NCBI RefSeq assembly: GCF_000003815.2
Contig: NC_049989.1
Location: 1 to 64,000, forward strand
Source: Branchiostoma floridae
Lineage: Eukaryota; Chordata; Leptocardii; Amphioxiformes; Branchiostomatidae
Reading direction: 5' to 3'
DNA: 64,000 bases
Shown: piece by piece, positions 961-53,769 of the stretch
Numbering within the stretch: position 1 is the first letter of the stretch
How the letters are laid out: each line of letters opens with the position of its first letter
Made by a program: the position numbers and the translations under genes
Notes under the pieces: generated by a model
What the model was told of the DNA's origin: nothing
What the model saw: the letters and a program-made list of their open reading frames with translations, nothing else
The model's database searches: none

Positions 961-969
961 CGACCAACA

Positions 970-1739: not shown

Positions 1740-1740
1740 C

Positions 1741-1850: not shown

Positions 1851-1964
1851 CGTGAAGAAAATATGCCCTGATACTGAAACAGCAAGGAAACTTGCTGACC
1901 CATGTTTCACAACAATGTGAACAACCACAACAATTTTGCTGTTTACCTACTGTCACTGAGAATA

Positions 1965-2172: not shown

Positions 2173-2301
2173 TAATAAGTCATCATGTTAACAGTTGAAA
2201 ATCGCAATACACTGTGTGTCTTAATCTATCCTGACAAATTTCTAAATTTCTACCATTAAACTATTCTTGATCTGAAATTCCTACAGAAGAGAAAAACATA
2301 C

Positions 2302-7012
<4,711 letters not shown>

Positions 7013-32810: not shown

Positions 32811-34117
32811 TTACTTTAATGCTTTCTCAATGCCCTGTAACTGGTTGTTTCCCGTATACCTTTCCACTGCCTGTTGCACTTCCTTTGATGCTAAACTCTG
32901 GGACGGTTTTCCTAATTCCATTACCTGTGCTATCTTCATGTAGTAAGATGCTGTTCTCCTAGTGAACCATCCTACGTGACCCATCATGGTATTCGCATCC
33001 GATGCAACCGCCATGTGCATTCAAATGGCACATCCGGCCCTACAACCATGTAAGGTATCACCTTCATATATGCCCTGTCTTTCTAAATATCTCCTGAAAG
33101 CATTGTCCAAAGCAGCTGTGGATGGCGCCTCTACTAACACAAGCCCTTCTTTGGACGTTGACCTAAATAACAAGCCACCCTTCAAATCTATAGAGAGCCA
33201 TCTTGCGGTCTCTACATATTTATCGACTGCCGCTACCGGACAAGATTCTGGGTCCCCTGTTGGCTCTAAGGCGAATACGTTCGTCCTACCATCTCTTAAT
33301 GTTTTCCCCCAAGTATGGTTGAACAGTAACCCCCTGATGGCAACCTTCCAATATCGTCAGTCCTGGATTTCATTAAGTCTGCTACCCTGTCACCAGCATA
33401 AAATAAGGACTTGAAAATTGGCTGATCCCTCGCCAAAATAAAAAGTTTCGTTGGAGACTTCTCGGCCTTCATTTGTGATTTGATGTAACTTCAAACTTTC
33501 AAAATTTTTGGCAAGAAAACTGGTGTCGCCTGTTGTGGGGTTAAGCCCTGTTCTAGCTGTTCTTTAGTTACTGCTTTTAGGTATTTCTTGACGGCTGGGC
33601 TCGCCGCTGGATTCCCCAGCCCCAACCTATCGTCCCAGTCACCCCTTCTACCATTTTCAGGGAAGATTGCCCTTAATTTGCCGACGTAGGAGTCCACTGT
33701 CTTAAAAGCTAGACGTGTTGGGCAAGTGCATGTACTTTGGTTCCGCTCACAACTCTCTTTATGGACTTTTGTTTTACCTTGTTGGTCCTTAAAGATTAGG
33801 AATTTTATAATGTCATTCGGAGAGGCTGAAAGAATTAATTTTGGTGGAACCAGAGACTCCAAAAATCTGTTCAGAAGATCTGTCAATGACTGATTTTGTT
33901 TAGCATACGCTGAATTGTCTCCCGCTCCCATAATTTCCTCGAATCTTGTGTCGTTGTCTTTGTAATTTATTTGAATTCTCTGTCTCCTTTCAGTACTCTC
34001 TTGTTTTTTTGTTTTTCTCTCCACATTTTTGACAAAAATTAAAATCCTGGCCAAGGCGCTCGGGATAGGCACCATAGTTTGTGGGATAGATGTCCCTTTC
34101 TCGCCATATCTTGCCAT
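32811..34117 (-). pseudogene. Tyrosine recombinase of a Crypton-like element (copy 2, three lesions)
   Basis: From 34117 the frame gives a core-binding domain: LTDLLNRFLESL, ASPNDIIKFLIFKDQQGKTK, AFKTVDSYVGKLRAIF, GNPAASPAVKKYLKAVTKEQ. After a TGA at 33491-33493 the same frame continues LFILARDQPIFKSLFYAGDR (catalytic Arg, codons at about 33386-33394). A one-base slip in the GGGGG run at 33330-33334 leads into NHTWGKTLRDGR (Lys), then LHGCR (H-x-x-R, 33039-33050). A TGA follows at 33021-33023, then MMGHVGWFTRRTASYYMK with the second His (32976-32978) and the tyrosine nucleophile (32940-32945). All five classic tyrosine-recombinase positions survive. Upstream, in another frame, FCQKCG near 34020 is a possible half zinc knuckle. 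There is no reverse transcriptase of its own. Confidence 0.8.
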
Positions 34118-34660
34118 TATAGCTTCCGTGGTTCCCAGGCCCCGATGGCGTCATCAAGCCTGGACAGGTGAACACCCAGTATCACCGCCTCAGGCAGTCA
34201 GACGGGTCCAGAGGCCAGATCTTTTGCGCTAGGTCCATGCGGACGGGCAACGGACATGTCTTGGTGCTAAAAGCCGGCTGCATTTCCTTGCAATAAATAA
34301 ATAGGAGTAAAAGAACCCCGTGCAATGCATTGCAATGGGGAGAGGTTCTTTTAAGAGCCCTTAAAGGCGGCGACGCGGTGTGCGCCCGCTATGTGTCCCC
34401 AGCCATGCTCCTGGCCAAGGCGCTCGGGATAGGCACCATAGTTTGGGGGATAGATGTCTCTTTCTCGCCATATCTTGCCATTATAGCTTCCGTGGTTCCG
34501 AGGCCCCGATGACGTCATCAAGCCTGGACAGGTGAACACCCAGTATCACCGCCTCAGGCAGTCAGACGGGTCCAGAGGCCGGATCTTTCGCGCTAGGTCC
34601 ATGCGAACGGGCAACGAGCATGTCTTGGTGCTAAAAACCGGCTGCATTTCCTTGGTATAA
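34047..34660. repeat. Two 245-bp direct repeats at the 5' side of the recombinase element
   Basis: 34047-34290 and 34410-34655 are nearly the same (both contain GGCACCATAGTTTG, CCGATG-CGTCATCAAGCCTG, CAGTCAGACGGGTCCAGAGG). The offset is 363 bp. Between them is GCAATGCATTGCAATGGGGA. They could be tandem terminal sequence of the element. Confidence 0.75.
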
Positions 34661-35988: not shown

Positions 35989-38900
35989 TTATGGCCTGAT
36001 CTTCATAGACACGGACTTCAGGGAGTAATTCCAGCCTCTCCATTTGGCCCACAGCACACCTTGCCCGTTTGTACAGGAGTTCCCACAGTTACCCAGGTAA
36101 CGGCCGTTGAGAATAGCGTGGCCGCAGCTCCAAAACCACCAGCCGGCCTGCCCGTGGTGTTGGGAACAATGGTTATTTGTCCAGGCATCAAGGTCCCTGT
36201 CTACAGTGGAGAACCTCTGCCTGTTGTTGGAGGGCCAGCCAGTGATGCAGTCTCCCGCAGTGCCTGAATACCCGGAAATGTGCAGCCGGTACCCGTCCGA
36301 CTCACCGGATACACTAGATGGAAATATTAAACGAGCGAGATTAAATGAACGATAAAGATTTTCATCATAAATCTATGTAACGTTAATAAACAACTACAAT
36401 AACAATTTGATTGGAAGTATAGTAATCACACTGTTACTGATTGAGGCTGTACCTTCATACACCATACACACTCATGAATGTACATACATACATCCATACA
36501 TACATACATACATAGCGTTCCATACATACGGACAGGCATATGCAATCACACACACATTTGTAAACATAAGTAAACGAACACATACATATTCATGTATACA
36601 TCAATGTATGCATGATTGTATATATCAATGTATGCACATTCATATATATGCATATAAACACTCTCACATAAACACACACGCAAACATGCATATAAACACC
36701 CTTATGAATTCATTAACAAAACGTTGGTGCGCGCATGTGTGCGTGAGTCAGTATTTGCGTGTCAAAAGGTGTTTTACTCACCTAAAGGTTTTTTACTCAC
36801 CTGAAGATGCTTTACTCACCTGTAGAAGTTCTACTCGCCTGAATGGGTTTTAATGACCTGAAGGGTTTTAATCAACTGTGTTTTACTTACTTAAAAGTGC
36901 TTTATTTACCTGAAGTGTTTACTCACCTGAAGGTGTTTTACTCACCTGAAGGTGTTTTACTCACCTGAAGGTGTTTTACTCACCTGAAGGTGCTGTATTC
37001 TGCGTAGCGTGATTCATTGTTCCAGTCCATGAGGTCAATCCGAAGGCGATAGCTTTTCTGATTGGTCAGCTGGTGGATGTTCTCGTTCCCCAGCCAGTAC
37101 TCCCCGTTCTTGTTCCCAAAGCCCAGTCTGTACTCCATCCAGGTCCGGTTGAAGGGAACCGACCCGTCCTGCCGCCGCTGGATCACGGTCCACCCGCCTC
37201 CTGTGGGGAGAAGGAATCAAGTAATGCTTAAATTTTAGAAAATAAAAATATACCCTGAAAATAGATACATACAAAAGACAGACATTTCTTACCTTGATAT
37301 GAAAAAGGAAATTAAAAGATAGATGACTTACGCTGAGAATGAAATACGCAAGACGAATTAAAACTAGACAGGTAACATTTGCAAGCAAATACAGAATGTT
37401 ACCTTCACATGGTCTAGCCTAGCATTTCTACCAGGAAGGGTAAACTGAAATAGTTGCAGATGTTGACACAGGATAAGACAAGAAGGTACAAATAAATGTT
37501 GATAATTTTTTATCTGGAACGTTATAATAATAATAATAATAATCACCAGGTGTATTTTGCCAGCCAGTAGGTACCCAAATTATGAGTAATGAGGCTGATT
37601 AACGTGGTCGAGGCACCTCCTCGAGCACGGGACCCCCGTTTTACGTCCCTCCCGGAAGACGATTTCGTGGAAAACTTCGTGAGGCTACAGCAATCCGGTC
37701 AGTCCTTGGTTGGTCCCCCATCCAAGTACTATCCGGACCGCGCGTTGCTTAACTTCCGAGATCAAGGGATCGGGTGTACCAACGCGCCACGCGGCCGTTA
37801 TGCATCTTGAATGATGAACACAACGTCTAATATTGTTCCACACAGGGTTTCTCATCATCATCTCATCTCAGTCCCATAGCTACAAGCCAAAGGGCAGTCT
37901 GTCTGTCCACAAAGGTTCTCCATTTCTGACGGTCGTCAACAGGGTTTACTCGACGACATTTAACGTGGGGAAGACGGCCGTCTGCGGGAGGGTGAGGGCC
38001 TAGGAATTTTTTTCGGCTTGGGGGAGGGCCAGGGAGAAATTACTTGGCTTGCGGGGAGAGAGCCATGGAAAAAAACTGGTTTCCTTTAACAATATGTATT
38101 CAAATGTTAAAAAAATAAAGCTTTGAATCACTCGGGAAATTCATAATCTCTGACTTGGTGTAGAACGCGAGCTGCGAAGTTCAGTTGATTACATAAGAAT
38201 GTGTGGCCGCGTAGCACAGTGGTAGTGTATTCGGCCCGTGACCGAGAGGTCGCCGGTTCGAATCCGCCTGCCGTGTTGCCGGTCTTGTGCCCTTGGGAAA
38301 GGCACTTTACACGACTTTCCTCACTTGACTCAAGTGAAAAATGAGTCGTCCCTCGGACAGGACGTTAAATGGAGGTCCCGTGTATGGGGAGAGTCACACC
38401 CCATGCACGTTAAAGAACCCCCACATGTGCGATGGTGCGGTGTAGTTGGAGCAAACCCTTCTGTCTGGAGTTGGTGATTCACTTCAAATCACCCGGTTGT
38501 AGGCCTGGCGAACCTCCATACCGTATCAGCCACACGGTGATTTACATCATTCACCCGGACGGGAGACCTGGCGCATCCCCGTCTTGTAATTAGCCAGCGA
38601 AAGGGTATGTCACCCCGTAAGGGGCGGTATCACCCCGTCGTGTGTAAACATGTGCGAACATGTGTGATCACGTCGACCGATGATGATGATGATGACATTA
38701 GAATAAGTTAAATTTTGCGCTTTCCGTCATTGTTGACGGACAAACTCGGCTTGTAAGTATAGACAAATTTTGCAAAAATCTCTAGAAATCAGCGGATGTT
38801 TGCATACGGTGCTGACTTAGATGATAATTCCTAACGCCCGCCGGCGGCGAGAGAGAAGCGAAAAGCAACTGGTCGAACCCAGTCGACGCCCCTCCCCCTA

Positions 38901-41900
38901 CTGGTCTGGTCAGTCGCGTCGTGCTAGCGCCGATGTTTTTGTTGTCATTTTCCCGGCCCTGATTAACTGTCAGTTATTGCTACCATAGAAGTAAAAAAAA
39001 AATCTCAAAATATGTGAATTTAAATGTGTAAGGTACTTTCAAAATGGTATCCGGTAAGCCGATCGGACCTCACATGCTTGCGTTCTATATGGGGGCGGGG
39101 CCCTACATGAAACGTAACAAATAGGTTTGCTTTTGATTCTTTAATTAACTGCTTATAGAATATGGACCGAATCTACCGGTGTCAGACATGTTGCACCAAA
39201 TGTAGGCTGATAAGATGTCGAAGATATTTCCTAAAAGGTAGGCAGAGATTTTCTTGGTGTTGGCGGTGGTGCTTTTTTCGTAATGATTTTCTTAGTCGGA
39301 CCGTCGCAAACAGTGCATTCAGCCCGTTTCCCCGTGAAAACATCAGCTATATTGTGCTAGATACAGCCTCACGTGAGACAAGAAGCACACACAGTCACAA
39401 TTTTATTGTCGAAAGGAAGCCAAACTGTTTGGAAATGGNNNNNNNNNNNNNNNNNNNNNNNNNNNNNNNNNNNNNNNNNNNNNNNNNNNNNNNNNNNNNN
39501 NNNNNNNNNNNNNNNNNNNNNNNNNNNNNNNNNNNNNNAGAACGGGACCTGAATTTTCTGTACTGGTACCTCCCCCTACCAACAGTAGATTTTTTTCTTT
39601 CTGTCCTTTCACATCTTATTCTTTGACTTTAGATTTATTTTGGCATTCTATGGCATTAGACTATGATTAGTTATCTGTTTTCTGATACTTTTTTGTCAAT
39701 CTACAGAATATTTGTGCTCATTTCACAGCTGCTTTGCACAATTTAATGTGTGGTCGAAAACTTTTTTTTTTTTTTTTTGGAAACGGCCGAAAATTGGTGC
39801 GAGCGTGGATGTCATCCATATAATCAAATCAACATGGCCTTTCCCTCCCCGGAACAGCCAAAATGTGTAAGATTTCCCGCGAAAGTCCTTATTTGGGGAG
39901 CGGGGTTGATCAACACAAAGGCGCTTACAACTAGTTGCGTCATTTCTTTTTCACCGCGGAAAATAGAATCAATTCTTTCTGACACATTTCTAGAGCAAGA
40001 GCGGGTCGCGTCCCCAAATTTCCTGTTCTAAATTTTGCGTGTGCCGGCCTTGCGTTCGTGCAAAAATGTAAACAGGGTAGCGAGTAGGCCTTGCCGCATG
40101 TGACCAGCGGGATGGGATCCTTCCCCGGAACAGCCAGATTTCCCGCGAATGTCCTTATTTGTTGATCAACACAAAAAAGGCTCTTACAACTGGTTGCGTC
40201 ATTTCTTTTTCAGCGCGGAAAACAGAATCAATTCTTTCTGACATATGTCTAGAGCAAGACCGTCCGCGTTTCCAAATTTCCTGTTCTAAATTTGAAGCTC
40301 TTTGATTCGGCAATGTAAAATTCAAACCATCGTAAGTTTGTATGTAAAACCCGGGCATTTCCTTTCGGGGCCGGGGCTTTCGGGGGAGAAGCCTCGCCAT
40401 GTGGCCCCGCCCACAACGTCGGCTTCCTTGTTACCAAGGCAATGCACTTTTTCGCCCACTTCATCAAAGGCCGCCGCTGTTGGTTAGAGTTTCAAACAGC
40501 CGCGTGCCAGTTGACAGCGAACTTCATATGCTACGTGATTATTGCATTCCTTGGACTTCCCCACAGCGGTGCTTCTACAAAATATCTATTAGACTGTAAC
40601 ATTTATTCCCACGTAACGTTACGTGTTTCATAGAATAGAATCTGACGCGGAACAGCGGTTTCGCCGGATGTTTTCCTTGAAACATGTCCGTTGGAATATC
40701 GTCTGACAGCGAGGCGGCGACGTAGGGATATAAGACCGTCAACAACAATCGCACGGCACGGCAGCGCAGCGAAGGTACTAGCGCTATAAATCCTCTAATG
40801 TGAAAAACAAGCTCTACAGGAAGTATTTAAAGAACCCCACACCAACAACTTTACAAAAATACAAAACGTATAGAAATAAATTCAATGGTTTGATTCGCTC
40901 GTCTAAGAGGCAATATTATCAGGATAGGTTTACAACTGTGTCAAACGATATACGTAATACTTGGAAACTTATAAATGAACTACTTAACAGAAAAAAGGCA
41001 AGTCCTACCCTCCCTTCTAAGTTTATGGACGGAGAAGATGAGATAACAAATCAGCAGAACATAGTCAACAAATTTAATGATTTTTTTGTGAATATTGGCC
41101 CTTCTTTGGCAAAACAAATTGACAAAACTGACAATTCTCCCTTATCCTACCTGCAAAATGAATATCCAACCATCAGCTTGTTCGATGCCCCCAGCACAGC
41201 GGAAATTCTTGACCTCGTTCGAATACCATGTTCCATAACTCCCGGGCGGGTTCCATAGCTACCGGTCGTTGACCTCGGGTCCTTGGAACGTAGTTCTAAC
41301 GTTCTATGGGGGCTCGAAAGTTCGATTTTGTGTTAAAATTGCTAGTTTTTCCACCCTTTTTTGCCCCATAAAATCATTTTTGTATCTTTAGGGGACCAAA
41401 TGACCAAGGTGCAATGTCTTATGTGCAGACCTACCAGCTTGCTGAATTATGAGATATTTCAAGGTCTAGTTTCGGAGATATTCATGTTTTTTTATTTGTG
41501 CGGAAAAGAAGAAGAAGAAGAAGAAGAAGAAACAAAGCAAAAACAGTATATACCTTCTGTGAAGGTAACATTAAAAACTCCACAAGAACGAACCTACCAC
41601 CAAACACTATAGACGACAGACACCATGTTTGGCAAAACCCGTACCTGCGGTATCCATGTCACAGTACGCCTCGACATCAGCGGGGAGGAGGCCGATAGGG
41701 TAGACTCCACTTGTTGTCCATCCTGATGAATGATACCCAGCACAGTCACCCTCTGGAAAACGACAAGAAGAAAAAAAGAACCTTGTTTTTCCAATATCAA
41801 CAAAGATGAATGAAAAGGTCAGGAAACAACAGATACAAGCATCATACCTGCTACACAAACGACTCCTGCGTCTTCCTTGTGGGTACAGTCGTGGTCTCCC

Positions 41901-44900
41901 CACCTGTTGATCTCACAGTCCGATACAGAAGACTCGTTCCCCGCGCAGTTCAGATTGTCCAGCCAGATGTGTCCTGTCCCTTCAGGAAAAACTCCTCCCA
42001 CCCTGGCGGACCCAACGTAGTACCCAAGCTGTCTACAGACCGCCATGGCGTCCCTGTCGTCAAACCCGTCATCACAGACCGTTCCCCAGTCTCCATTTCC
42101 GGGCCGGACCTCCACTCGGCCTTCTGATGAACTCTGGCCTCCGGTAAGTCGGACAGACACGTCACCTAAGACAACATACGAGGGCATCTTACCATTGAAT
42201 ACTTTTCATTCAATTAAGATGGTTTCAATTAAAGACATTAACAAAACCAATAACTCTTTTGGCGACACCTCAGAGGCTAGCCTACTAGTATAGTGTGCGT
42301 CCGTTTGACAAAAATTTCCCAAATTCTACAGGCATGTCAAGAATTTTTCCACGCCTGCGTAACTGCATCATCAGAGGGGAATACCTCTGGAATGGGTTGA
42401 CGGATCTTCATGATATTTTGAACGCAGATAGCTTCAGTGATGCCTTACATAATCATATGCTAGTCATGTAAATCAGGGGCTCATTTGCATAATTAATTAG
42501 GACGGTTTATAAATACACTGCCTATTTTTTTAGAATACTAAAAATATGCCAAATGTAACTCAAAAAGAAAGAAATGTTCGGCTTACTGTTAAATACTGTA
42601 AATGCATTTAAGTTCGCGGGGATTTAATTTCACGGTAGCGGGAAAAAGGACTTTTCGCGGTGGTTTTAAGTTCGCGGTAACACCATAGACTGCAGTCTAA
42701 TACCATCATAGAAAAATGTTCGCGGTGGTTTTAAGTTCACGGTGAAGTGGTCACCGTGAAAACCGCGAACATTAATCCACAGCGAACATTTCAGCATTTA
42801 CAGTATATATCTGATTGGCAAAAATTCGTTCGCGCGTGCACAATTGCACCATCCTTTTGGAGGGGAATAACTCGGAAAATGGGTTGACGGATCAACGTGA
42901 TTTTTGATATGTAGATAACTTCGGAAATGTCCTCCAAATGTCAACGGCTATTAATGCAAATTAGTGGCTAATTTGCATAATTAATGAGCACAGTTTATTA
43001 GGCGACAGTATTCAATAATACTAGGACACTTAAACATGACAAATGTAGCTAGAAAAGAAAGAAATATCGAAAGACATCAATTATGCAAATTGTTACCTAC
43101 TTTGCATAATTAATGTGGCCACACTCCCTGGGGAAAACAGCGGTGGTGATGCTTATGTTGTTTTTTGTATGGCCGGTCTTCTACTCAACAAGTATTTGAA
43201 GACCAATATTTGTAGTGTTTTGTGAAGCATTGTTTTTAATCTTTATGACAGTTGCGTGGCTGTTTTGTACAGGTTGTATATTTAGGGACACGAGCTACCA
43301 ATGCCTAGTAACATGTGACCACAGTGACTCATCGCTACCAACATTTTTGTGAAAATTCTGTCTTCCAAAAAAGGGGAAGTGAATATGTGTACTAAGTATT
43401 TTTCTAATGGAAAAAAAACTGCTGTTTGTTTGGACTTGGTTTATTTACCTTTCTAATCATCATAGTCAGTGGCAACAAACACGGCGTACTTATGCATAAT
43501 AAGATGAACAAAAAATCCGTGCCATCTTAGGACAGAAACCATCTTAGGGCGGCCCCGGTTACTTAACAAACGGAAACTCCGTACCTGTACAGATGACACC
43601 TGCGTCCTGGCTGTGGCTGCAGTCTTGGTTGACCCAATTCTGAATCTGACAGTCACCTACAAAAGATTCTACCCCGACGCAGTTAGAATCCCTCAACCAA
43701 ATGTTTCCAGTCCCTTCTCCGAAGTCTCCTCCTGCCGTGGCGACTCCACCCCGATACCCGAGCTGTCTACAGACCACCTGGGCGTCCCTGTCGTCAAACC
43801 CGTCATCACAGACCGTCCCCCAGTCTCCATGGCGAGTCCGAACCTCCACCCGGCCTTGTAATGGACTTTGGCTGTCGGTAAGGCGGACGGACACTCCACC
43901 TGTACATGTGTAATTATAATCATTGATAAATCATCGACTTTCCTCTCACTTGTTGCGGGGATGAATATTGATACTGAATTTTCTATTCACCCGCTCGACA
44001 TTACCTAATAATTTCTAGCCTTATTGTCTAGGTCATATACATATGGCCAACCATTATAATGACGCGAGCTAATGGATGTGACTCTAACCTGTACAGACCA
44101 ATTGTACATCCTGGCTATGATCACAGTCAGATGGTTCCCAGCTAAAGCCACAGGACAGGATGTTGGTCTCGTCTCCGTTGCAGGTGACGTCACCCAGCCA
44201 GATGTTCTCCGACCCTTCTCCGATGTCTGCCTGTCCAGATGACGTCACCCCGCCGGTATAACCCATCTGTCTGCACACGAACCCGGCCTCAGCCTCGGTC
44301 CAGCTGGTGTTGCACACGGCACCCCACTCTAACACTGCCCACGGCCGGATTTGCAGCCGTCCTTTCCAGGGTATCAGATTCCCAATCAGCCGGAGAGCTG
44401 CGTCTCCTTTGGGCACATCAAACATGTTTTAGTTTCCGTTTTGGGCAATGAGTATTGGTTTTGTTACAACAAAAGTCCCTAATCTGACAAAATTATTCGC
44501 AGGTACCCAAGAGTTCCCATAATCTATATCTTAGCCAATTGTACCTTCACAGACGACTCCTACATCCTCCTTGTGTGAACAGTCACTCTGTCCCCAGGAG
44601 TCAGCAAGACAGTCTCCAAGGTTCATCTCGTTGCCCCTGCAGGCCACCTCGTCCAGCCAGACGTTCCCCGAACCTTCCCCAAAATGACCCGCCAGTTTTG
44701 CTTCCCGGGCCGACCCGAAGTCGAGCTGTCTGCAGACAACGTGAGCATCCTGCAGGTCAAAGTTGTCGTCACAGACGGAGCCCCATTGGCCGGTACCGTT
44801 TCGGACCTCCACTCGGCCTGCCGCTGGTCCCGGGCCATCAGCCAGACGGAGTTGAAGTTGCATTCCTGAAAATGACACTTCATGATCATCATCGCGAGAC

Positions 44901-45293
44901 AGAAAGAGAGAGAGTTTGTGGGGGGAGGGAGAAAGAAAGGATGGAAAGATAAATGGACTGACAGGTGGGCAGATATCTAGATGGTCGTCACGAGAGACGC
45001 ATACCATTTTAATTCCTAAACATTGACCAACTAAAAGATTCATTGCAAAATTTCTAACAAATGAAAGCAAACAGTACATTTTGCTAGATGTGCTAGACTA
45101 AACAGACTGTAGATTCCTCACCGATTACATGCGCCGCGTCAGGAGTGGATGATGAACTTTTTGTAGTGATCTCAACAGCTGTACTTTCGGCGCTTCCACT
45201 GGAAGGCTGTAAATCCATCGGTGCCGTCATCCTGGTTATTGGGGCGACTGCGTCACTGGGCAGCGTGGAGATGACATCATCCGGTACCAGCTT
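35989..45293 (-). CDS. SRCR x4 / fibrinogen-related-domain protein (C-terminal exons)
   Basis: Exons in order: 45293-45122 Ser/Thr-rich linker (PSSGSAESTAVEITTKSSSS; phase 0 to 1); four SRCR exons 44865-44545, 44406-44089, 43899-43585, 42165-41848 (all phase 1-1); 41752-41645 start of the fibrinogen-related domain (GDCAGYHSSGWTTSGVYPIG, YCDMDTAG; phase 1-1); 37200-36984 (GGWTVIQRRQDGS, EYWLGNENIHQL; phase 1-2); 36313-35989 (FSTVDRDLDAW calcium site, GWWFWSC, LNGRYLG, ends MKIRP, stop TAA). Every join keeps frame with GT/AG. The fibrinogen-like domain is complete. SRCR domains bind microbial or polyanionic ligands and fibrinogen-related domains bind acetylated or sugar ligands, so this looks like an extracellular pattern-recognition protein. 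No membrane span is seen. The probable N-terminus is the coiled-coil exon at 53185-53769 (phase 0, same strand); that link is inference. Confidence 0.85.
36470..36530. repeat. CATA microsatellite
   Basis: (CATA)n with interruptions at about 36485-36520, followed by CA/TA-rich low complexity to 36700. It creates a spurious frame rich in His, Ile and Tyr. Confidence 0.8.
36765..36990 (-). repeat. 19-bp minisatellite made of 5' splice sites
   Basis: On the minus strand the unit is GTGAGTAAAACACCTTCAG. Exact 19-bp spacing is seen at 36924, 36943, 36962 and 36981 (plus-strand CACCTGA), and degenerate 19-21-bp units extend left to about 36765. The first unit begins inside the real donor of the fibrinogen-related exon. 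Roughly ten TTCAG|GTGAGTAAA-like sites lie in a row in the intron. Confidence 0.85.
36984..37200 (-). CDS. Fibrinogen-related domain, middle exon
   Basis: A 217-bp exon, phase 1 to 2, acceptor CCCCACAG. It encodes GGWTVIQRRQDGSVPFNRTW, EYWLGNENIHQLTNQKSYRL, and ends YAEYSTF. Its donor CTTCAG|GTGAGT is the seed of the tandem array that follows in the intron. Confidence 0.95.
37210..37590. other. Intron sequence, no feature
   Basis: AT-rich intron between fibrinogen-domain exons. An (AAT)n run is at about 37525-37545. Nothing else seen. Confidence 0.5.
37595..37800 (-). mobile_element. 5S rRNA-headed SINE
   Basis: On the minus strand the head matches 5S rRNA: GATCTCGGAAGTTAAGCAAC (box A region, about 37743-37762) and AGTACTTGGATGGGGGACC (box C region, 37712-37730) in the correct order. 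It then runs into a body with GGGACGTAAAACGGGGGTCC and CTCGAGGAGG shared with 1741-1850. Divergence from a true 5S gene and the attached body make it a SINE3-type element rather than a 5S gene. Confidence 0.75.
37810..38199. other. Intron sequence between SINEs
   Basis: No exon. A GGGGGAGGG-rich patch (37985-38060) is the only notable composition. Confidence 0.4.
38200..38696 (+). mobile_element. tRNA-headed SINE, near full length
   Basis: The head has box A TAGCACAGTGG (38212-38222) and box B GGTTCGAATCC (38255-38265) at normal spacing, with D, anticodon and T stems visible. It is followed by a conserved SINE body (GTGCCCTTGGGAAAGGCACT) and ends in a (GAT)n tail at about 38680-38696. About 490 bp. 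It lies in the intron between fibrinogen-domain exons. Confidence 0.8.
38700..39850. other. Intron sequence with a dispersed repeat and a gap
   Basis: No supported exon. 39570-39850 resembles 59500-59660 (shared 'ctttcacatctt', 'ggtcgaaaa' and 'gtcatccat-taat/aatcaacatggc' phrases). The 100-N gap is at 39439-39538. Confidence 0.45.
39439..39538. other. Assembly gap (100 N)
   Basis: Placeholder gap inside the long intron of the SRCR/fibrinogen-domain gene. Confidence 0.95.
39853..40300 (+). repeat. Direct repeat, two diverged copies of about 175 bp
   Basis: 39853-40035 and 40127-40300 share GGAACAGCCA, 'gatttcccgcgaa-gtccttattt', GTTGCGTCATTTCTTTTTCA and CCAAATTTCCTGTTCTAAAT. The offset is about 270 bp. 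Confidence 0.7.
40775..41225 (+). mobile_element. LINE ORF2 fragment, linker before reverse transcriptase
   Basis: An open frame reads MKNKLYRKYLKNPTPTTLQK, YKTYRNKFNGLIRSSKRQYY, DIRNTWKLINELLNRKK and FNDFFVNIGPSLAKQID, the standard segment between endonuclease and reverse transcriptase in jockey/CR1-like LINEs. It breaks at about 41225, before any catalytic RT motif, into unrelated sequence. It is antisense to the host gene, in its intron. Confidence 0.7.
41330..41560 (+). repeat. End fragment of the satellite-like repeat family
   Basis: Phrases such as 'gaccaaatgaccaagg' and the terminal (AAG)n run AAAGAAGAAGAAGAAGAAGA match the closing part of the arrays at 11978-13040 and 46605-47945. 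It ends 90 bp from the 41645-41752 exon. Confidence 0.5.
41848..42165 (-). CDS. SRCR domain 4 exon
   Basis: A 318-bp phase 1-1 exon. It reads VSVRLTGGQSSSEGRVEVRP, then WGTVCDDGFDDRDAMAVCRQ, EGTGHIWLDNLNCAGNE, DCTHKEDAGVVC. Six cysteines and an intact acidic cluster. It is followed directly by the first exon of the fibrinogen-related domain. Confidence 0.9.
42310..43120 (+). repeat. Two tandem diverged 260-bp repeats interrupted by a MITE
   Basis: 42310-42590 and 42835-43080 share, in order, 'atgggttgacggatc', 'gctaatttgcataattaat', 'cagtttat' and 'aaagaaagaaat'. The 208-bp MITE at 42596-42803 sits at their junction. No coding content; intron between SRCR domains 3 and 4. Confidence 0.65.
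42596..42803. mobile_element. 208-bp TA-flanked MITE, copy 2
   Basis: Begins CTGTAAATGC, ends GCATTTACAG, flanked by TA on both sides. It is the reverse of 1965-2172 and exactly the same length. No coding capacity. Confidence 0.8.
43125..43505 (-). repeat. 390-bp dispersed repeat, copy 2
   Basis: Reverse-orientation match of 13320-13715, with shared AGTAACATGTGACCACAGTG-like and CGGCGTACTTATGCATAAT strings. It lies immediately 3' of the SRCR domain 3 exon. Confidence 0.75.
43585..43899 (-). CDS. SRCR domain 3 exon
   Basis: A 315-bp phase 1-1 exon. It reads VSVRLTDSQSPLQGRVEVRT, then WGTVCDDGFDDRDAQVVCRQ, FGEGTGNIWLRDSNC, DCSHSQDAGVIC. Six cysteines and an intact acidic cluster. Very close to domain 4 (VSVRLT, WGTVCDDGFDDRDA), so these two probably arose by recent exon duplication. 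Confidence 0.9.
44089..44406 (-). CDS. SRCR domain 2 exon, divergent
   Basis: A 318-bp phase 1-1 exon. It reads DAALRLIGNLIPWKGRLQIR, then WGAVCNTSWTEAEAGFVCRQ, GEGSENIWLGDVTCNGDE, DCDHSQDVQLVC. All six cysteines are kept, but the usual CDDxxD acidic cluster is CNTSWT and the final loop SxxDAGVxC is SQDVQLVC. Metal-dependent ligand binding may be lost in this repeat. The acceptor (TGTGCCCAAAG) has a weak pyrimidine tract. Confidence 0.85.
44545..44865 (-). CDS. SRCR domain 1 exon
   Basis: A 321-bp phase 1-1 exon (TTTTCAG acceptor, GTACAA donor). It reads QLRLADGPGPAAGRVEVRNG, then WGSVCDDNFDLQDAHVVCRQ, FGEGSGNVWLDEVACRGNE, DCSHKEDVGVVC. Six cysteines and the acidic CDD...D metal-binding cluster are present. 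It has the six-cysteine pattern of group A SRCR domains but is encoded by one exon, as group B usually is. Confidence 0.9.
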
Positions 45294-45299
45294 CTCACA

Positions 45300-46600
45300 A
45301 GAACAACAAGTGACCGTAGGTAACATACTCTGTGACCTAATTATGGTTTATGTCGGTTGTGATGTTTTCTGTGGTGTATGACTCGGTGTTTATATCGCAT
45401 ACAGAACACATCACATCAGCTTATACCAAAAACCAAGCACTACCAAATTTAAAACACAGTCCTGTACGCACGTCACTAACAGCGAAATCAGCGTCTCAAT
45501 CGAACGACACCAAATGGAAACAATAACACAGCTTCACAATGGATACCTCAGACGCACAGTGACACAATTTTAAAAAGTGGGTCAATGACAGCTGGAGACA
45601 TACCATAACCCCATATCTGCTTGGAGATAAGTGATTGCCAAAACCCATCGTCTGTAGGCCAGCTGTTCCACAATACCAGGGAAATAGAGGTGATTTCTCT
45701 AATTATTACATCGATAATGAAAACAGCTACCGCGAAAAAAAAATCCCAAGGATCAAACACGTTCTAACCATAAAATGCATATGACTATCAACCGCGCAAA
45801 CTGTTAACAGCTAGTATTGCTATGTCAAACCGACCTCAATACTGGTAACGCAAAGCCCGAAAGAGATGGCATATTCCGACTAGGACAACATCTGCTTGAC
45901 GGTATCCAATTACAACAGGGCTTAAGGCGCAATCATAAGGAAGACCTGAACCACTATACTGGACGGAGTAGGGGTGAAAACTGAAATATATAACATCCAT
46001 AATAAAAACAGCTACGGCGAAAAAAAAGAACGTGCATCATTTCCGGAGTACAGACGACATGCCAATCCACATGCGATTGCGGCATACAGAACATAGAGAT
46101 ATAGGTGCGAACATTCAACGCACAAAGTGATTACAAGACTCTGTTGCTGGAGGTGACCCTCCAGTCACAGATTAAAAACATGGAAGGTGGGAAACATGGC
46201 TCCATTACTACTGACGGAGTACTGTAGGTTGTTATGCTGTTCGCAGTTGTATCTCATGATCCCTTTGCTGCATTTGTAAGTAGTTTGACTTGTCGATAGC
46301 CCGTATGTGCGAGACGAACCATGTTGTTATTTGCAGCTGTTTTATAAGTGATGTAATATCTTAGAAATCCTTTTTTTTTAAATTGTGGAAAAGTTGGCCT
46401 TTTCTGTACGTGCTTAGCAGATGTTAGGTTTATCTGTATCTTGCGGCTTAAGGGGCACAAAAGCTGTTGTCTGTCAGATCAGACATCATGTCAAGCAGAT
46501 GCTAGGCTCCAACTTTCTATACTGCACTGGTTACTGCTGGTGTTGTGATTCAGAACTACATGGACATAATAGAAACGTCGGTTTGATGCAAATAGTGCAG
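45300..46600. other. Non-coding; one diverged internal duplication
   Basis: AAAACAGCTAC-GCGAAAAAAA occurs at about 45720 and 46005, suggesting a 285-bp duplication. The minus-strand frame 45548-45760 lies across the first copy and has no family support. I see no exon here. Confidence 0.4.
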
Positions 46601-46604
46601 ACTA

Positions 46605-47945
46605 ATTAACAACTAGAAAGGCCGACATTTGCTTGAGAGCAAAGACATCATATTTCAGTCAGCTCCCTCCCATGCAACAATAGACTGTTCCAAAATCACT
46701 CATGTTTAAAAATGGATCACTTTTGCTTAAAATGACTTCTTACTACTAATCAGACTTATAAACAAAATTGAACCTTACCCGTACAAAAATGGACTTATGC
46801 AGAAAGGGAAAATAGATCCGTCCAAAAACACGCTAAAAAATGGAATTTTGAATCATCATCGTCCAAAACTGAATTTGAAAAAAAATCCCCCCTCCGTGCA
46901 ATAATGGACTCTTCCTGTGACACCCCTATGTAAAGTGGAGAAGAATTAAAATGCTTCGCAAAAATAGGACTTAATCGCCAAAGTCGAAAAATGAATTGGA
47001 AAAAAATGCCCGCCCTCCGCTTAAGACTGGACTCTTTCGTCACACCTCATGAATACTCTCATTGAAAACATGGCTAAGCAACCCCGTCCAAAATTGCAAA
47101 ATTGAGTTTAAAATAAGTCCCCCGTGCAGGAATGAACTCTTTCAGCTTACATCAGGCTAGCTGATTGCCTGTCAAATCCTCCTCATGATATTAATTCAGG
47201 CTGCCTCTTTGATTAATTTATAAACATGTCAAGCCATGCACCTGCAAAATAAGTCTTCAGATGGGGTCAACGACCTTAAGGCCATTGGAAAATGACCAAA
47301 AAAAATCTCCAAATAAATCATTTTGAAGTGGTTCATGCCAAGAATTATATATGTGGTCTGAATAAAACATCTAGTGTGACCCTCGAACAAAATTTAGGTC
47401 ATTCGGTCGTAAAACTAGGGTACAGGAGCCAAAAGTGTCCCTTTTTGGTGAAAATTGGTCAAACAAATCGCAAAATTAAGTATTTTGTTGTACTGTACGC
47501 GAAAGTGTTGAATTCATGTGTGCATATGTCTAAGCCACTAATATACTGAATTTCAGGTCATTTGGTCCAAAAGGATCCAAAAATATACTTTTTTTCTAAA
47601 ACATTTCGCCCCAAACGCAAAAGTAAGCATTTTACTGTTACAGTACTTTATTGCTGTACTTACTTTATGCCAAAAGCGTTATTAAATCTGTATGAGTTTA
47701 TAATCGAGGCACTGCTGTACCAAATTTCAGGTCAGTCGGATGTTAAACCAGGGTATAGGGGGCCAAAATATACAGTTTTTGTCTACCCCCTCCCCCCAAA
47801 AAAAGTTGATAAAAAAAAGACACATGAAAATAACAGGGGGTATTGGTCTCTATCTATCTATGGCCAAAGTTCAGGTCATTCGGTCCAGAAACGAAGGAGA
47901 TGAAACGCTTGAAGATTCGACAGGAGAAGAAGAAAAAAGAATCAT
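46605..47945 (+). repeat. Satellite-like repeat array, copy 2
   Basis: Opens with CTAGAAAGGCCGACATTTGC, passes through a region of short 'aaaatgga-tt' and 'ctcttt-gtcaca' phrases, and continues with units carrying AGGTCATTCGGT or AGGTCATTTGGT plus 'aggag-ccaaaa-t'. It closes with GACAGGAGAAGAAGAAAAAA. Same architecture as 11978-13040. Confidence 0.65.
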
Positions 47946-48064
47946 TTAAAATAAAATATATTTCACCATACCATTTGGGAATTGTCAGTTTATGAATTCT
48001 TCAGTACATTCAAGACATGATCATCACAATTTAAAGAAGAAAGACGGTGTATAACTACATACAG

Positions 48065-48400
48065 TACATGCTAATCACTGAATAGCCGCACTCCTCTAGA
48101 ACAACGAATATGTAGATACTGCAATCTAGATAAGCTAGAAGACGAACATCATTTTGTAGTAGAATGTAGTTTGTACAAGAAAGAGAGAGCTGAACTCTGG
48201 AGACTGATAGAACCCATGTTCCCCCACTTCATACAACTAAGTAATAAAGACAAATTTATATTCCTTATTAATTTAGACAAACCTTTACTTTTAAAGCATA
48301 TCTGTTTCTATTTTTCAATATCACATTGTCCAAAAAACGAGAAGAAGTCGGATTCACGAAGTAGAATACAATTCTTGAGTATTGTAGATTCATTGCTCAT
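48065..48400 (+). mobile_element. LINE C-terminal zinc-knuckle fragment
   Basis: The frame gives TPLEQRICRYCNLDKLEDEH, then HFVVECSLYKKERAELWRLI, the 'R-C--C----ieDE-HF---C--Y---R--L' C-terminal motif of many non-LTR retrotransposons, followed by a decayed tail. About 110 codons survive from the first Met at 48171. Confidence 0.65.
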
Positions 48401-48549
48401 ATTTCATGCATCTCTTGTTGCGACCTGTACTGAACCCAGTGGGTATGTTTGCCAATTAAGGTCTTCATTTATTTACTCAGTAACACGAGTACACTATAGG
48501 CAGGTCCGAGCAAAAATGATCGAGGGTAGACTTAACGGGATGTGACTTG

Positions 48550-49125
48550 TGTTCGTACTAGACAAGCGTTCAAGACATGTGCAAATTGACCTCCGGACAC
48601 TCGAGTGAACCTGAAAAGCTGCCACGGGGTTTGTTTGTGGTGCATTTTTTAATGGATCCCGTGTCGGATGTAGTCCTAGCCGGGCTCCGAAGCCACACAT
48701 AAAAAACAAAACTACTAAAACTCTGGGTTAAACTGAGCCCAGGGCCAGGCGTACTCAAATTATAGCAGGAACCGCAAGGTGTCCCGCGGGGCCACATAGG
48801 AGTCACACACGAGACAGACCAAAACAGTCCGGCAGGACCCTATATCCAACTGTGGTGAAGCCTCTATTGACCAGGACAACACAATGCTTATGAATCATTC
48901 TGGTTTTGACCGACACTTGGCTGAGTTCACCGGTCTCAACTTCTGGACACAAAATAATATAAGAAGAACACGTAAAGGCCTGCTTTTTTTACTTAATGGC
49001 CACCACGTAACAAGACCTGAAGGCCACTCATGTCCACGTTCAAGGTTCAAGGTTACGGGTTACATGATTGGAACTGTAACAGCAACTCTTCGCCCTAGGT
49101 CAGAAACATCCACTGTGCGAAAGGG
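48550..49125. other. Non-coding stretch
   Basis: A plus-strand frame at about 48857-49000 (MLMNHSGFDRHLAEFTGLNF) is protein-like and could be retroelement debris. It has no splice or family support, so it is not called. Confidence 0.35.
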
Positions 49126-49139
49126 TGTCATTTCCGGAC

Positions 49140-49620
49140 GTTTCTATGTTTGTATACATCCGGATCGGGACCGTTTCTGGATATATCCGGACAATATCCG
49201 GACGAAATCTGACATGACTCCCCTGCGTTTTCGGAAAATTTCAGGAGTCCGGAACGGGACCATTTAATTCCTGCCTCATATCCGGAATTCCAGTAATGGA
49301 ACGTTTTCGGACTCTTTGGAGACAAACCACGTTCCGAATATTTCGTATATATCCGGATAATTTCAGAAGTCCGGAACGGGACCAAATAATTACGTCTCAT
49401 ATCCGGATTTCCCGTAATGGAACGTGTTCGGACTCTTTGGATACAAATCACGTTCCGAATATTTCGTACTAATCCGGATAATTTCAGGAGTCAAGAATGG
49501 GACCATATAATCATGTCGCATATCCGGATTTCAAGTAATGGAACGTTCTAGGACTCTTTGGAGACAAAACACGTTCCGAATATTTCATATTTTCTGAGCG
49601 CGTTCGGGGCTATTACGCCC
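49140..49620. repeat. 121-bp tandem repeat rich in TCCGGAT
   Basis: ACGTTCCGAATATTTC recurs at 49331, 49452 and 49573 (121-bp steps), and each unit carries ATCCGGATAATTTCAG and 'ggaac-ggaccat'. The TCCGGATAT core also pervades 51450-52860. Confidence 0.8.
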
Positions 49621-49624
49621 CGGA

Positions 49625-50140
49625 AAGGTTGCATAAACTTAAGATATACTGAAACATCATAGGAACAATACAACACATTATTTCAGAATATCCAGTAACT
49701 TTACGATCATGCTAAATACCTAATATTTAACGTTTCCTGTCCGTTTTAACCCGAAAATGCTAACTCGGTAAGGCTACATTTTGTGAAAGCTTTTCAAAGA
49801 CTTTCCTGTATAAATCAGATGACACAAGTATCACAACAAATACATTATGTGGAGGAACAGATCATGTTAACGTCAAGGGGCAAATCAATATGCATTTGTC
49901 TCTTAGTCTTACCAAGGACGTTTTAGCTCACTACAACCTCATTGGTCTTCACAAAAAGTGAAGCTCGAATGAAGCCAAAGTTAAACAGTTCACTGTCAGA
50001 TCCAATAATATCAAGCCCAAGTCAATAACATCATAACAAAACTGATCAGTTTAAATGTACAATATCAAATGTACAGTATCCGACACAAGTCTAACGTTAT
50101 AAACCATACAATCAATATTCGTAGGATAAAAATGTCATTA
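49625..50140. other. Non-coding stretch
   Basis: I see no exon, repeat or motif of note. Confidence 0.4.
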
Positions 50141-50145
50141 CGAAA

Positions 50146-50475
50146 TCAGTACGACAGTCCATTTTCAAGTCCTCTATAAGTCCGTATCGTGTTGACTGTG
50201 GAATCATCGTCCGGGGCGCCCTCTTCTGCGTCTTTGTGGTAGTGGACGATCATTGGCGACGGAAGATGCTCTGGCAAGACCCCGCAATATCGACGGCACG
50301 TCTCGAGGACAGTCCGCTCCATTGCATAGTCCAGGCACCGTCCGTCTTCAGAGTAGAAACAGTTCTGGCAGGTCATACAACGGCACCAGGCACAGACTGT
50401 CGTAAGTGTTACCAGGAGGTAGGCCTCGGTCGTCGGCATGGCAGGACAGACGATTGGGAAACAGAGGCTCAGCGG
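50146..50475 (-). CDS. Small cysteine-rich secreted protein (97 residues), unknown family
   Basis: After a TTTTTTTTCCATTCCAG acceptor (exon start 50475), a start codon at 50439 opens MPTTEAYLLVTLTTVCAWCR, signal-peptide-like, followed by a dense cysteine cluster (CMTCQNCFYSEDGRC, ETCRRYC) and an acidic tail to a TGA at 50146-50148. It would be a last exon with a short 5' leader. The frame also continues open upstream of the acceptor. Eight cysteines in about 40 residues suggest a disulfide-rich secreted peptide, but no named fold matches. It lies between the coiled-coil exon and the SRCR exons on the same strand, so it could alternatively be a skipped or alternative exon of that gene. Confidence 0.4.
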   Translation of the reverse strand, partial: PLSLCFPIVCPAMPTTEAYLLVTLTTVCAWCRCMTCQNCFYSEDGRCLDYAMERTVLETCRRYCGVLPEHLPSPMIVHYHKDAEEGAPDDDSTVNTIRTYRGLENGLSY

Positions 50476-50519
50476 CTGGAATGGAAAAAAAACGGCTAGT
50501 AACTGCCCCGAACCCATGA

Positions 50520-51450
50520 ACGGTACATGTAAAATTATTCAAACAACACGGCCATAAAAATCACAGCAGGACAAGACGGGGACAAAGGCAGGAATCTGGG
50601 GTCGGCTATCATCACAGGGCGCGGGCCACACAGATGGCACAGATAAGGACCCCCAGAGAACGAATGGAATTTTATATGCACACAATCACATTGGTCCTAG
50701 TGAGGAGATTACCGTTTCTCCTTGGTTCTACTAAAGATTTAGCCAGCCAAAACAACAGGACAGGAAAGTTTAGAAGCAGCCGTTACGGCACATACAGCAC
50801 AAAATAATATGAGAATTTAACTAACTATGGAACGGGCAGTTTGTAAACAAGCCGGGGATGACACGCGGGGGTTCCAGCTGAAAGAGAAGCGATCTATCAT
50901 ACAACAATCTTTACAAAGAGATCACACTACTAATTATTAAATACACAAAACACTAGGAAGGGATAACAGACATTGCTGACAGACATATACGGAACTAAGA
51001 ACGGTAACTGCTATGTATATACAATCTATGTACTAGAGAGCTACACTACTCACTTCTTGGTCCGGTAGCGGCTAGCGGCAGCGACAACTGAGATTCAAAT
51101 CTAGTTTCAAACCTAACTGCTGTCACCAGCTGGTCTACTATTGGTCTAGTCAAGTCATGTGACTTCCTAATATAGTCTTGTTACCTAAGGACTCCTCCAG
51201 ATGGTTCCAAGCAAGTTAGTGTCATCCATCATGCCTGTTTCACGGAAACACATGGCATTGTGCATTATTTTTGTGAATAAATGCATCATGTACTTACCAG
51301 TTTTAAAGTTGTACACAGCAGCAAACGCTGTGGCACGGTGTAGGCTGTTATCTGCAACGACTGCCCCAGTAGGCGCACCGTTGACATGCCAACGTACTGG
51401 TCTGCTCGGCACTTTGCACAGCTTGCATAACCGCTTTACGAGTAAAGTTG
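50520..51450. other. Mostly non-coding
   Basis: A minus-strand stretch at 51294-51440 (VPSRPVRWHVNGAPTGAVVA) ends at a GTAAGT donor but lacks an acceptor and a known family. Nothing else is supported. Confidence 0.3.
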
Positions 51451-51458
51451 CCTCGTGA

Positions 51459-51835
51459 TATTGTCCGGATATGGGCCATTCCCACACAGCAACGCTGGTA
51501 TTCAATATCATGAGTGACTTTTTGTCATGATATTGTCCGGATATGGACCTATCCCAAACTGCACCGCTGGTGTGGAGTGTTTTGACTGAACTTTTTCAAG
51601 ATATTGTCCGGATATGGACCTATCCCAAACTGCACCGCTGGGGTGGAGTGTTTTGACTGAACTTTGTTCAAGATTTTGTCCGGATATGGACCTATCCCAA
51701 ACTGCACCGCTGGGGTGGAGTGTTTTGACTGAACTTTATTCATGATATTGTCCGGATATGGACCTATCCCAAACTGCACCGCTGGGGTGGAGTGTTTTGA
51801 CTGAACTTTGTTCAAGATATTGTCCGGATATGCAA
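51459..51835. repeat. 72-bp tandem repeat, six boxes
   Basis: TATTGTCCGGATATGG or a one-base variant occurs at 51459, 51531, 51602, 51674, 51746 and 51818, a 71-72-bp step. The rest of the unit is 'acctatcccaaactgcaccgctgg' and 'gtggagtgttttgactgaacttt'. Because 72 is a multiple of three, an artefactual 24-residue repeat frame appears on the minus strand. Confidence 0.9.
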
Positions 51836-51839
51836 AGAA

Positions 51840-52900
51840 ACAATAATACTTGACTCATAATTGTTACCATCGCAAAGATTGCTTTTTGTGTCATTTGATT
51901 GTAAATGTCGATGTCAGTATATTTGCACATGTATATGGAAGCTTAATCTTCAATTACCAGAAAATTAAAGAGTAAACATACATTGACATCGGGCATACTC
52001 GTTGTAGAATAAAAACACATATACAGAAGCAAAAACGTTAATGACGTGTATTTGACAAGATAGGAAACCTTTTTAAGGATACCCAACAAAACAATCTCAG
52101 ATTCATGTATGACAAGAAAAGTAATTTGTTAACCATTAAGTTGTCCGAAAACTGATCTCTGGAATGTTTCTGTTTTGGACATCTGTCGTAAATGGAACGG
52201 AATATGAATTCGGAAGGAGCGAAAATTTCGGCAAAAAATGCAGTCTTATTTGTTCAGATGCGCAATAAAACAATCACCGATTCACAATTCACGTATAGAA
52301 TACCTTTATTGGTAACGGTCAGAATATGCTAACTTCGAATCTGTCCTAAAACTAATCCATGGAATATCTGTCGCGGATATGTCTCGTAAATGGAAAGAAA
52401 AGAAAATAGTATGAATTCGAAAACATGAAACGTCCCTGACACGTATTCGGAAGAACGGGAAATTCTATCCGTCCGGGCATGTGCTGAAACATTTCATGAC
52501 TCATGATATTCTGAGACATAATGAATTGAAAATGTCATCTGACAATGGCCCAGAAATAATGCACATCATGCTTCGTGCAAACTCCTAATTTGTCCGGGTA
52601 TTCCTTATCGAAATATATGGACCTTGGATATGTAAAGAATGTAGAACATATCACGTATTCGGAGGCAAGAAACGTCAATGGCGCGTATCTTGAAAAGCAG
52701 GAAAGTCTCATTTGTCCGGATACATAACAAGACAATTCCTGACTCATGATATTTCCAGATATGGGAAATATTGAACATCGTGCCCGGACACAGTCCGAAT
52801 ATTTAGCATGTCCAAAAATATGTCAACTCCGACTTTGTCCGGAAATCACACCCTTTCGCACAGTGATCATGATTGAGACCAGCCCAATTGCTCACTATGA
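51840..52900. other. Non-coding, scattered TCCGGATAT pieces
   Basis: No exon. Degenerate copies of the TCCGGATAT repeat (52375, 52723, 52755) and repeated 'acgtattcgga' phrases. Confidence 0.45.
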
Positions 52901-52904
52901 GTGA

Positions 52905-53096
52905 GGACTAACTGACCCAACAGGCGAAGCAGGGGTTACGAGGGCTGCTCGGGAGATTCGCTCCGAAGCTAAGTACTCATTTTTACCGGAGTAAAGTGAG
53001 GAAAGCCGTGTCTCCAAGGGCACATGACCAGTAACACGGCAGCCGGATTCAAACCCGCGACCTCTCGGTTCCTATGCCTGCGCTACGCGGTCCCAC
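52905..53096 (-). mobile_element. tRNA-headed SINE, 3' truncated
   Basis: On the minus strand: box A region CGCGTAGCGCAGGCATAGG and box B GGTTTGAATCC, then GTGCCCTTGGAGACACGGCT and CGAGCAGCCCTCGTAACCCC. Same family, by head and body, as 38200-38696; the tail part matches 4395-4470. Confidence 0.7.
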
Positions 53097-53184
53097 GGTC
53101 TGCTCTTTTGAATAAAACCTTATTTAGCCATGCTTAAGGATTTACTTCCGTGCAGTATGAATAGGAATAAGGATAGTTACTCAC

Positions 53185-53769
53185 CTGTTGCTGTTGTTTG
53201 ATGATTGCGTCGTGCTCGTACAATGTTGTCGTCAGATTCTGTACCTGGGTTTGGAGACGGGTTTCTTGTTCTTGTAGCTCCTGCGCTAGGTTCTGTACCT
53301 GGGTTTGATGACGGGTTTCTTGTTCTTGTAGCTCTTGTGTCATGTTCTGTTCCTGGGTTTGGAGACGAGTTTCTTGTTCTTGTAGTTCCTGTGTCAGATT
53401 CTGTACCTGGGTTTTGAGACGGGTTTGTTGTTCTTGTTGCTCATGTGTCAGATTCTTTTCCACCTCTAACTGATCAGACAGAGCGTCCATCCTCGACGTG
53501 AGATCGGACTGTTGACTCAGTAAGGTTTGCACCAGTGAAGTCAGGAGATGCACTTGATCTTTCAAGTAGGCCGTTTCTTCCTTGGTCTCGGCGAGTTGCT
53601 CCTCGAGCCGTGGTGGGGAAAAGGTCCCAGTACGAGACCCAGGCGGAACCACATAGGTGTAGGAACAGTAGCCCTTGTCTGCATACTCATGGTGGGGTCT
53701 AACATCCTGGGCTCGGGCAGGAAAACTAACGCCCAGGACCAACATAACGAGCAGTACGACACTCGCCAT
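53185..53769 (-). CDS. Secreted coiled-coil first exon (angiopoietin-like N-terminus)
   Basis: The start codon at 53769 opens MASVVLLVMLVLGVSFPARA, a clear signal peptide. Then comes GYCSYTYVVPPGSRTGTF, similar in form to the 'gqC-YtfilP' N-terminal motif of angiopoietin/ficolin-type proteins. About 140 residues of coiled coil follow (LAETKEETAYLKDQVHLLTS...). Its second half is four tandem 18-residue units (TRLQTQVQNLTQELQEQE and variants; 54 bp at DNA level) with NLT/NMT glycosylation sites. The exon is 585 bp and ends in phase 0 at CAACAG|GTGAGT. In this family such N-termini precede a fibrinogen-related domain, and one lies downstream on the same strand (35989-41752) after four SRCR exons. 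A single cysteine near the N-terminus could link chains. Confidence 0.75.

Follow-up and report, generated by a model that had tools for sequence, protein, structure and literature searches.

The first 64,000 nucleotides of Branchiostoma floridae contig NC_049989.1 (forward strand; hereafter the window) raise the question of whether a first exon with a signal peptide and a coiled coil belongs to the same gene as a block of scavenger receptor cysteine-rich (SRCR) and fibrinogen-related domain (FReD) exons 7.9 kb away, as had been proposed from the letters alone (the original prediction). Indeed, nine minus-strand exons (53769-35989) join into one frame of 891 amino acids without an internal stop when the linker exon starts at 45290. 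The product contains, in this order, a signal peptide, a coil, a Ser/Thr-rich linker, four SRCR domains and a complete FReD. The open joined frame and the Pfam matches agree with the four phase 1-1 SRCR exons and the full FReD that had been placed in register on this strand. The in-frame exons, the domain matches and two paralogues with identical exon order and phases together support the single-gene proposal. We put the probability at roughly 0.8 that the locus is one intact gene of a multigene family, encoding a secreted coil-SRCR4-FReD protein that would bind microbes or damaged self.

The domains were assigned on the joined exons with Pfam, using the model with a linker start at 45293. SRCR was matched in four stretches (2.5e-105, 345.9 bits, cut-off 26.1) and Fibrinogen_C over profile positions 4-220 of 221 (2.8e-65, 220.7 bits, cut-off 22), i.e., the FReD is complete; these matches are beyond doubt more than chance. 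No further significant SRCR or FReD match was obtained by tblastn with the gene's domains in the 64-kb window, nor any significant match in the 10 kb beyond it (L009). Since a 100-base run of N (39439-39538) lies inside the intron between FReD exons 1 and 2 and the genome has at least 173 Fibrinogen_C matches, exons 2 and 3 of the FReD might have been brought in from another gene by a scaffolding artefact. This is highly improbable, as the FReD is continuous over the profile range given above and the same three-exon FReD also follows SRCR4 in both paralogues.

From the window alone, the call of one gene is insecure, because the acceptor of the linker exon is poor and that of a competing frame in the interval is far stronger. 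Splice sites were scored with approximate matrices, and the exon 1 donor (CAG/GTGAGT) shares the top score among the minus-strand donors. Three observations weigh against splicing from it to the linker: the linker acceptor is weak by splice-site score, the linker codon score is low (-0.26), and the interval also holds a minus-strand frame (50475-50147) that begins in phase 0 at a stronger acceptor. Because a better-scoring acceptor in another phase lies within the linker frame, at 45255, the phase match between exon 1 and the linker is weak evidence alone. A linker-like exon (phase 0 to 1, acceptor score of at least 2, donor score of at least 8, at least 150 nt; thresholds chosen after the linker had been seen) occurred in 4% of 200 Markov-shuffled 7.9-kb intervals. 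With strict thresholds, no other signal-peptide exon was found in the interval; relaxed thresholds gave six weak candidates, compared with 2, 36, 1 and 4 in four control stretches. The 20 internal phase-0 exon candidates found under relaxed thresholds, two of which are the linker itself, are no excess over the shuffled mean of 25.8.

The competing frame suggests an alternative in which exon 1 is a separate gene that ends with this frame, giving a coil with a Cys-rich tail, and the SRCR-FReD gene is started elsewhere; in a milder version, the gene itself uses the frame as an alternative 3' end. Among the 3559 minus-strand acceptors that were scored, that of the frame, at 50475, ranks sixth. Read in phase 0, the frame runs open to a stop, has a G+C content at third codon positions (GC3) of 0.63, is present as a single copy in the window and reaches a codon score of 0.05, while 480 open reading frames (ORFs) outside the model have a mean of -0.46 (standard deviation 0.24). 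However, the three plus-strand frames over the same stretch score almost as well (-0.02 to -0.05), the frame matched no Pfam family, nor any PDB entry below E 0.045, and the nearest downstream AATAAA or ATTAAA, at 49268, is about 880 nt away.

The comparison of the gene with its own genome (513 Mb; the window makes up the first 64 kb of its contig C11) bears directly on this choice. The genome-wide family searches scored only the best candidates, and the family counts given here are positions from such searches. The first 112 residues of exon 1 had 27 matches including itself: 18 on C148, four weak ones on C14, two on C13 and one each on C6 and C8. At C148:189014-195337 (plus strand; P1), exon 1, the linker, SRCR1-4 and three FReD exons are found within 6.3 kb, and all these parts are also present at C148:126827-135392 (minus strand; P2). 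With exon ends set at splice sites, guided by the window gene, P1 and P2 have the same nine exons in the same phases as that gene, and their frames stay open over 933 and 1009 amino acids. The phase-0 end of exon 1 at 53185 and the phase-0 start of the linker were given correctly in the original prediction, but the linker position was not: 45293 has to be replaced by 45290, three bases later. The two acceptors are both in phase 0, and P1 has TAG immediately before the common CTG.

Intron 1 is 7894 nt long in the window gene and 1501 and 1503 nt in the paralogues. It aligns in order with that of P1 at donor offsets 9-59, 4225-4707, 5177-5212 and 6816-7009, and in order with that of P2 too, so we regard it as the same intron, lengthened; a stretch of about 4.1 kb was either inserted here or lost there. 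The frame 50475-50147 falls in this stretch, which is absent from both paralogues' introns, and it is unmatched in the C148 stretches that hold P1 and P2. It was rejected as a part of the gene; it may be a gene fragment that was inserted here, or an alternative end. As an exon-1 copy also lies upstream of SRCR1 at 14 of 15 other places, we consider it very unlikely that exon 1 is a separate gene or that the frame serves as an alternative 3' end. The same exon order and collinear intron in P1 and P2, and the 14 upstream exon-1 copies, support the reading of the 7.9-kb interval as one predicted intron, which had been an assumption of the original proposal.

The single-gene reading was followed through the rest of the family. 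Outside the window, 15 SRCR1 homologues share 77-86% identity with SRCR1, and the other 27 listed matches 50-58%; the set used here comprised the 16 matches of at least 77% identity including the window, the 27 weaker ones being excluded. In 14 of the 15, the same strand carries an exon-1 copy 0.9-13.4 kb upstream, and no further listed SRCR1 homologue separates the two (23 of the 27 exon-1 matches were used for this count, the four on C14 being excluded). An SRCR2 copy follows 0.1-5.3 kb downstream on the same strand in 14 of 15, one of them partial (15 of 98 SRCR2 matches were used: those of at least 63% identity including the window, plus one partial at 82%). The last FReD exon lies 2.3-11.6 kb downstream on the same strand in all 15 (21 of 52 matches, those on C11, C148, C6 and C8). 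Base-by-base reading of SRCR3, SRCR4 and the linker, and of the order and phases of the exons, was confined to the window gene, P1 and P2.

Some members fit this pattern less well and count against it. One of the 15 SRCR1 homologues, C148:304108, has neither exon 1 nor SRCR2 nearby; only 12 of the 27 exon-1 copies have a phase-0 donor by simple pattern; and the copy L030, which stands upstream of a listed SRCR1, has a donor only in another phase. Several exon-1 copies have short frames, and together with the donor differences this means that some members may be pseudogenes or differently built. On C148, five of 18 last FReD exons stand without an SRCR1 partner.

Other loci were seen in the course of these searches. 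The exon-1 copies L043 and L044 (C148:203193 and C148:90381) contain an in-frame stop and are perhaps pseudogenes. At L023 (C148:181435-184541), a three-exon FReD of the same type has no SRCR match in the 16 kb upstream, and FReDs may thus occur without an SRCR array in the C148 cluster. Several three-exon FReDs, some of them preceded on their strand by a single SRCR exon of lesser similarity, are found on C3 (L010-L021, 32.84-33.08 Mb), where tblastn gave no exon-1 match in these stretches. Contig C10 has many of the genome's Fibrinogen_C matches, in clusters around 19.3-19.5 and 20.3 Mb. In eight FReD loci (L001-L008, about 3.6 kb each), tblastn with the gene's domains matched only the FReD itself.

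The ratios of nonsynonymous to synonymous substitution rates (dN/dS) were compared among the three genes; these share sequences, so that the tests are not independent, and the p values are uncorrected. Overall dN/dS was 0.40 for the window gene versus P1, 0.55 for the window gene versus P2 and 0.53 for P1 versus P2. Taken as a whole, the findings show that the combination of SRCR and FReD is a duplicated, overall constrained gene family and not a one-off gene-prediction chimera. The values of SRCR3 and SRCR4 were 0.15-0.35 over the three pairs, those of the last FReD exon 0.80, 1.03 and 1.74. In all three pairs, the last FReD exon had a relative excess of replacements compared with the other eight exons (one-sided Fisher test, p 0.017, 0.025 and 0.005) and compared with the four SRCR exons (p 0.053, 0.012 and 0.002). 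Single-exon ratios call for caution, since SRCR2 had a dN/dS of 1.89 in P1 versus P2 on few synonymous changes. Exon 1 has a length of 585 nt in the window gene, 708 nt in P1 and 927 nt in P2. The nine other exon-1 copies with a phase-0 donor pattern give 222-936 nt, although the shortest (222 nt, on C14) begin elsewhere than at the ATG. The linker differs in length from that of P1 by 12 and 3 nt, which would argue for coding constraint. To summarize, the family seems to diversify through gene duplication, changes in coil length and fast change in the last FReD exon.

Coil and secretion were judged from composition, periodicity and hydropathy. Strong hydrophobicity is confined to residues 1-19, after which come A-R-A and Q in the manner of a cleavage site; elsewhere the best 19-residue mean, 1.12, falls short of what a membrane span needs. 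A signal-like start without a second hydrophobic segment means secretion, and the product is predicted to be secreted, with no predicted membrane segment. Pro and Gly are absent across residues 54-195. The hydrophobic period is about 3.5 residues ahead of the repeats; inside them it is 3.6, the value that five 18-residue copies demand. An N-glycosylation sequon recurs at the same position in four of the five repeats, and the secreted product would be a glycoprotein. These features fit a long, helical and probably bundled stalk encoded by exon 1. The sole Cys of the exon sits in YCSYTYVVPP, which resembles the peptide IQHGQCAYTFILPEHDGNCR printed in PMC2982831, a likeness checked against this one printed peptide. 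The linker exon has 169 nt, and Ser and Thr make up 17 of its 58 residues (counted from the 45293 start), about twice the protein average.

In the pairwise PDB ranking, the closest solved structures of the SRCR domains were CD163/M130 chains, with PIT54, CD5L and DMBT1 lower, and those of the FReD were angiopoietin-2 and FGL1. The DxD motif of the FReD pocket is kept. In the aligned sequences of the window gene, P1 and P2, the FGL1-type CHxxNLNG motif of the pocket is without its His and Asn, a point against recognition of the ficolin kind: acetyl specificity like that of ficolins is unsupported and should not be assumed.

The gene could be real and yet encode a signalling ligand of the angiopoietin/ANGPTL kind instead of a defence protein. 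Its coil plus FReD layout, the position of its FReD nearest to angiopoietin-2 and FGL1, and the N-terminal CSYTYVVP, resembling a peptide that we take to be from angiopoietin-1, all point that way. On the other hand, the four SRCR domains are nearest to CD163/M130 among solved structures, and a clustered family of many copies with variable coil length and a fast last exon suits recognition better than a conserved receptor partner. We therefore regard the signalling role as unlikely, and prefer that of a defence protein.

The layout resembles several known systems in part. Angiopoietins and ANGPTLs are likewise secreted proteins with a signal peptide, an N-terminal coiled coil, a linker and a C-terminal FReD; the window protein differs by its four SRCR domains between linker and FReD, its 18-residue repeat coil and its clustered multigene family. 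This angiopoietin-type layout and five amphioxus Angptl-like genes are described in PMC5237311. Like CD163/M130, DMBT1, CD5L and PIT54, the window protein has tandem SRCR domains, but it adds a coiled-coil stalk and a FReD head and has no predicted membrane segment. Class A scavenger receptors (MSR1, MARCO and SCARA5) share the combination of coil and SRCR and were among the SRCR matches of the PDB search. They are type II membrane proteins with an N-terminal anchor, a layout of coil and collagen and one SRCR domain, whereas the window protein has a signal-peptide-like start, four SRCR domains and a FReD. In mollusc fibrinogen-related proteins (FREPs), one or more immunoglobulin-like domains precede the FReD; the 14 Pfam families that were listed for the window protein (E up to 1) include no immunoglobulin family, in which it differs from them. 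Ficolins and invertebrate fibrinogen-related proteins also use a FReD as terminal binding head. Unlike ficolins, the window protein has a coil-like region and an SRCR array, lacks the pocket His and Asn, and has no collagen family among the same 14. An amphioxus fibrinogen-related protein has been called a multivalent pattern recognition receptor, according to a title cited in PMC5117596. The protein fits the definitions of SRCR and FReD proteins. From angiopoietin-like proteins, ficolins, class A scavenger receptors and mollusc FREPs it departs in one or more of the features that define each group.

An event of this kind is expected from what has been reported for lancelets: more than 10 new domain pairs per million years, with domain exons shuffled mainly in phase 1-1 at extreme rates (PMC4284660), amphioxus SRCR proteins that pair with more kinds of domains than those of other animals (PMC2575513), and an SRCR expansion in B. 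floridae (PMC10855680). The coil-linker-SRCR4-FReD architecture was not found in our literature search, the scope of which did not extend to the supplementary tables of SRCR combinations and composition (PMC2575513 Additional data file 3; PMC10855680 Table S6), nor was it found in the available text of PMC11797021, PMC6208332, PMC6321704, PMC3927612 and PMC13228809. Within these limits, the search agrees with the earlier remark that the architecture could not be named.

The coordinates of the gene are collected in Table 1. Directly behind the exon 8 donor lies a 19-bp tandem array of about 12 copies (36766-36992), several of which are perfect CAG/GTGAGT donors. Elsewhere in the window, ten scanned ORFs included four with a Pfam match at E 0.01: ALOG_dom, two C-type lectin matches and a weak Viral_alk_exo below the cut-off. 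A second set of ten ORFs gave no Pfam match, and ARAGORN found no tRNA. The ALOG_dom match (1.4e-26) is in the minus-strand ORF 33494-34150; we take this domain to come from tyrosine-recombinase mobile elements, and 33024-33356 (minus strand), with no Pfam hit, may be part of a recombinase. The C-type lectin matches, in ORFs 2264-2614 and 4726-5166 (minus strand), probably belong to another gene near the contig start.

Table 1 Exons, introns and repeats of the coil-SRCR4-FReD gene in the window
Feature	Position	Strand	Remarks
Exon 1: signal peptide MASVVLLVMLVLGVSFPARA, one Cys (within YCSYTYVVPP) and a coiled coil with five 18-residue repeats at its end	53185..53769	-	ATG start; phase 0 end
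Coding tandem repeat, 54-bp unit corresponding to the 18-residue coil repeat	53231..53456	-	
Predicted intron 1, collinear with the first introns of P1 and P2 (1.5 kb) but much longer than these	45291..53184	-	
Stretch of intron 1 (about 4.1 kb) without counterpart in the P1 and P2 introns; contains the exon-like frame 50475-50147	48960..53126	-	Offsets 59 to 4225 from the exon 1 donor
Exon 2: Ser/Thr-rich linker	45122..45290	-	Phase 0 to 1
Exon 3: SRCR1	44545..44865	-	Phase 1-1
Exon 4: SRCR2, most divergent of the four SRCR	44089..44406	-	Phase 1-1
Exon 5: SRCR3	43585..43899	-	Phase 1-1
Exon 6: SRCR4	41848..42165	-	Phase 1-1
Exon 7: FReD part 1	41645..41752	-	Phase 1-1
Exon 8: FReD part 2	36984..37200	-	Phase 1 to 2
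Exon 9: FReD part 3 with putative ligand pocket	35989..36313	-	Stop TAA at end

In the proposed mechanism, the coil would bundle the chains, which the lone N-terminal Cys could link, and the Ser/Thr-rich, probably O-glycosylated hinge would spread the arms. The four SRCR domains and the C-terminal FReD head of each chain would bind microbial or damaged-self surfaces with avidity. As a bundle would present several SRCR arrays and FReD heads together, its function is best inferred to be the binding, with avidity, of microbial or altered-self surfaces, and the product would act as a secreted multivalent pattern-recognition protein.

For the family as a whole, we propose tentatively that it is a clustered, expanded and previously undescribed one with a fixed scaffold, in which stalk length is varied by 18-residue repeats and the FReD pocket exon is diversified, giving a germline repertoire of multivalent two-headed recognition molecules; it may be a diversifying set of microbe-binding molecules. 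The gene is a concrete example in keeping with reports that lancelets shuffle phase 1-1 exons. SRCR3 and SRCR4 seem to be constrained and the last FReD exon to change fast, and this apparent division offers a testable model of how a recognition repertoire could arise in an animal that lacks rearranging antibodies.

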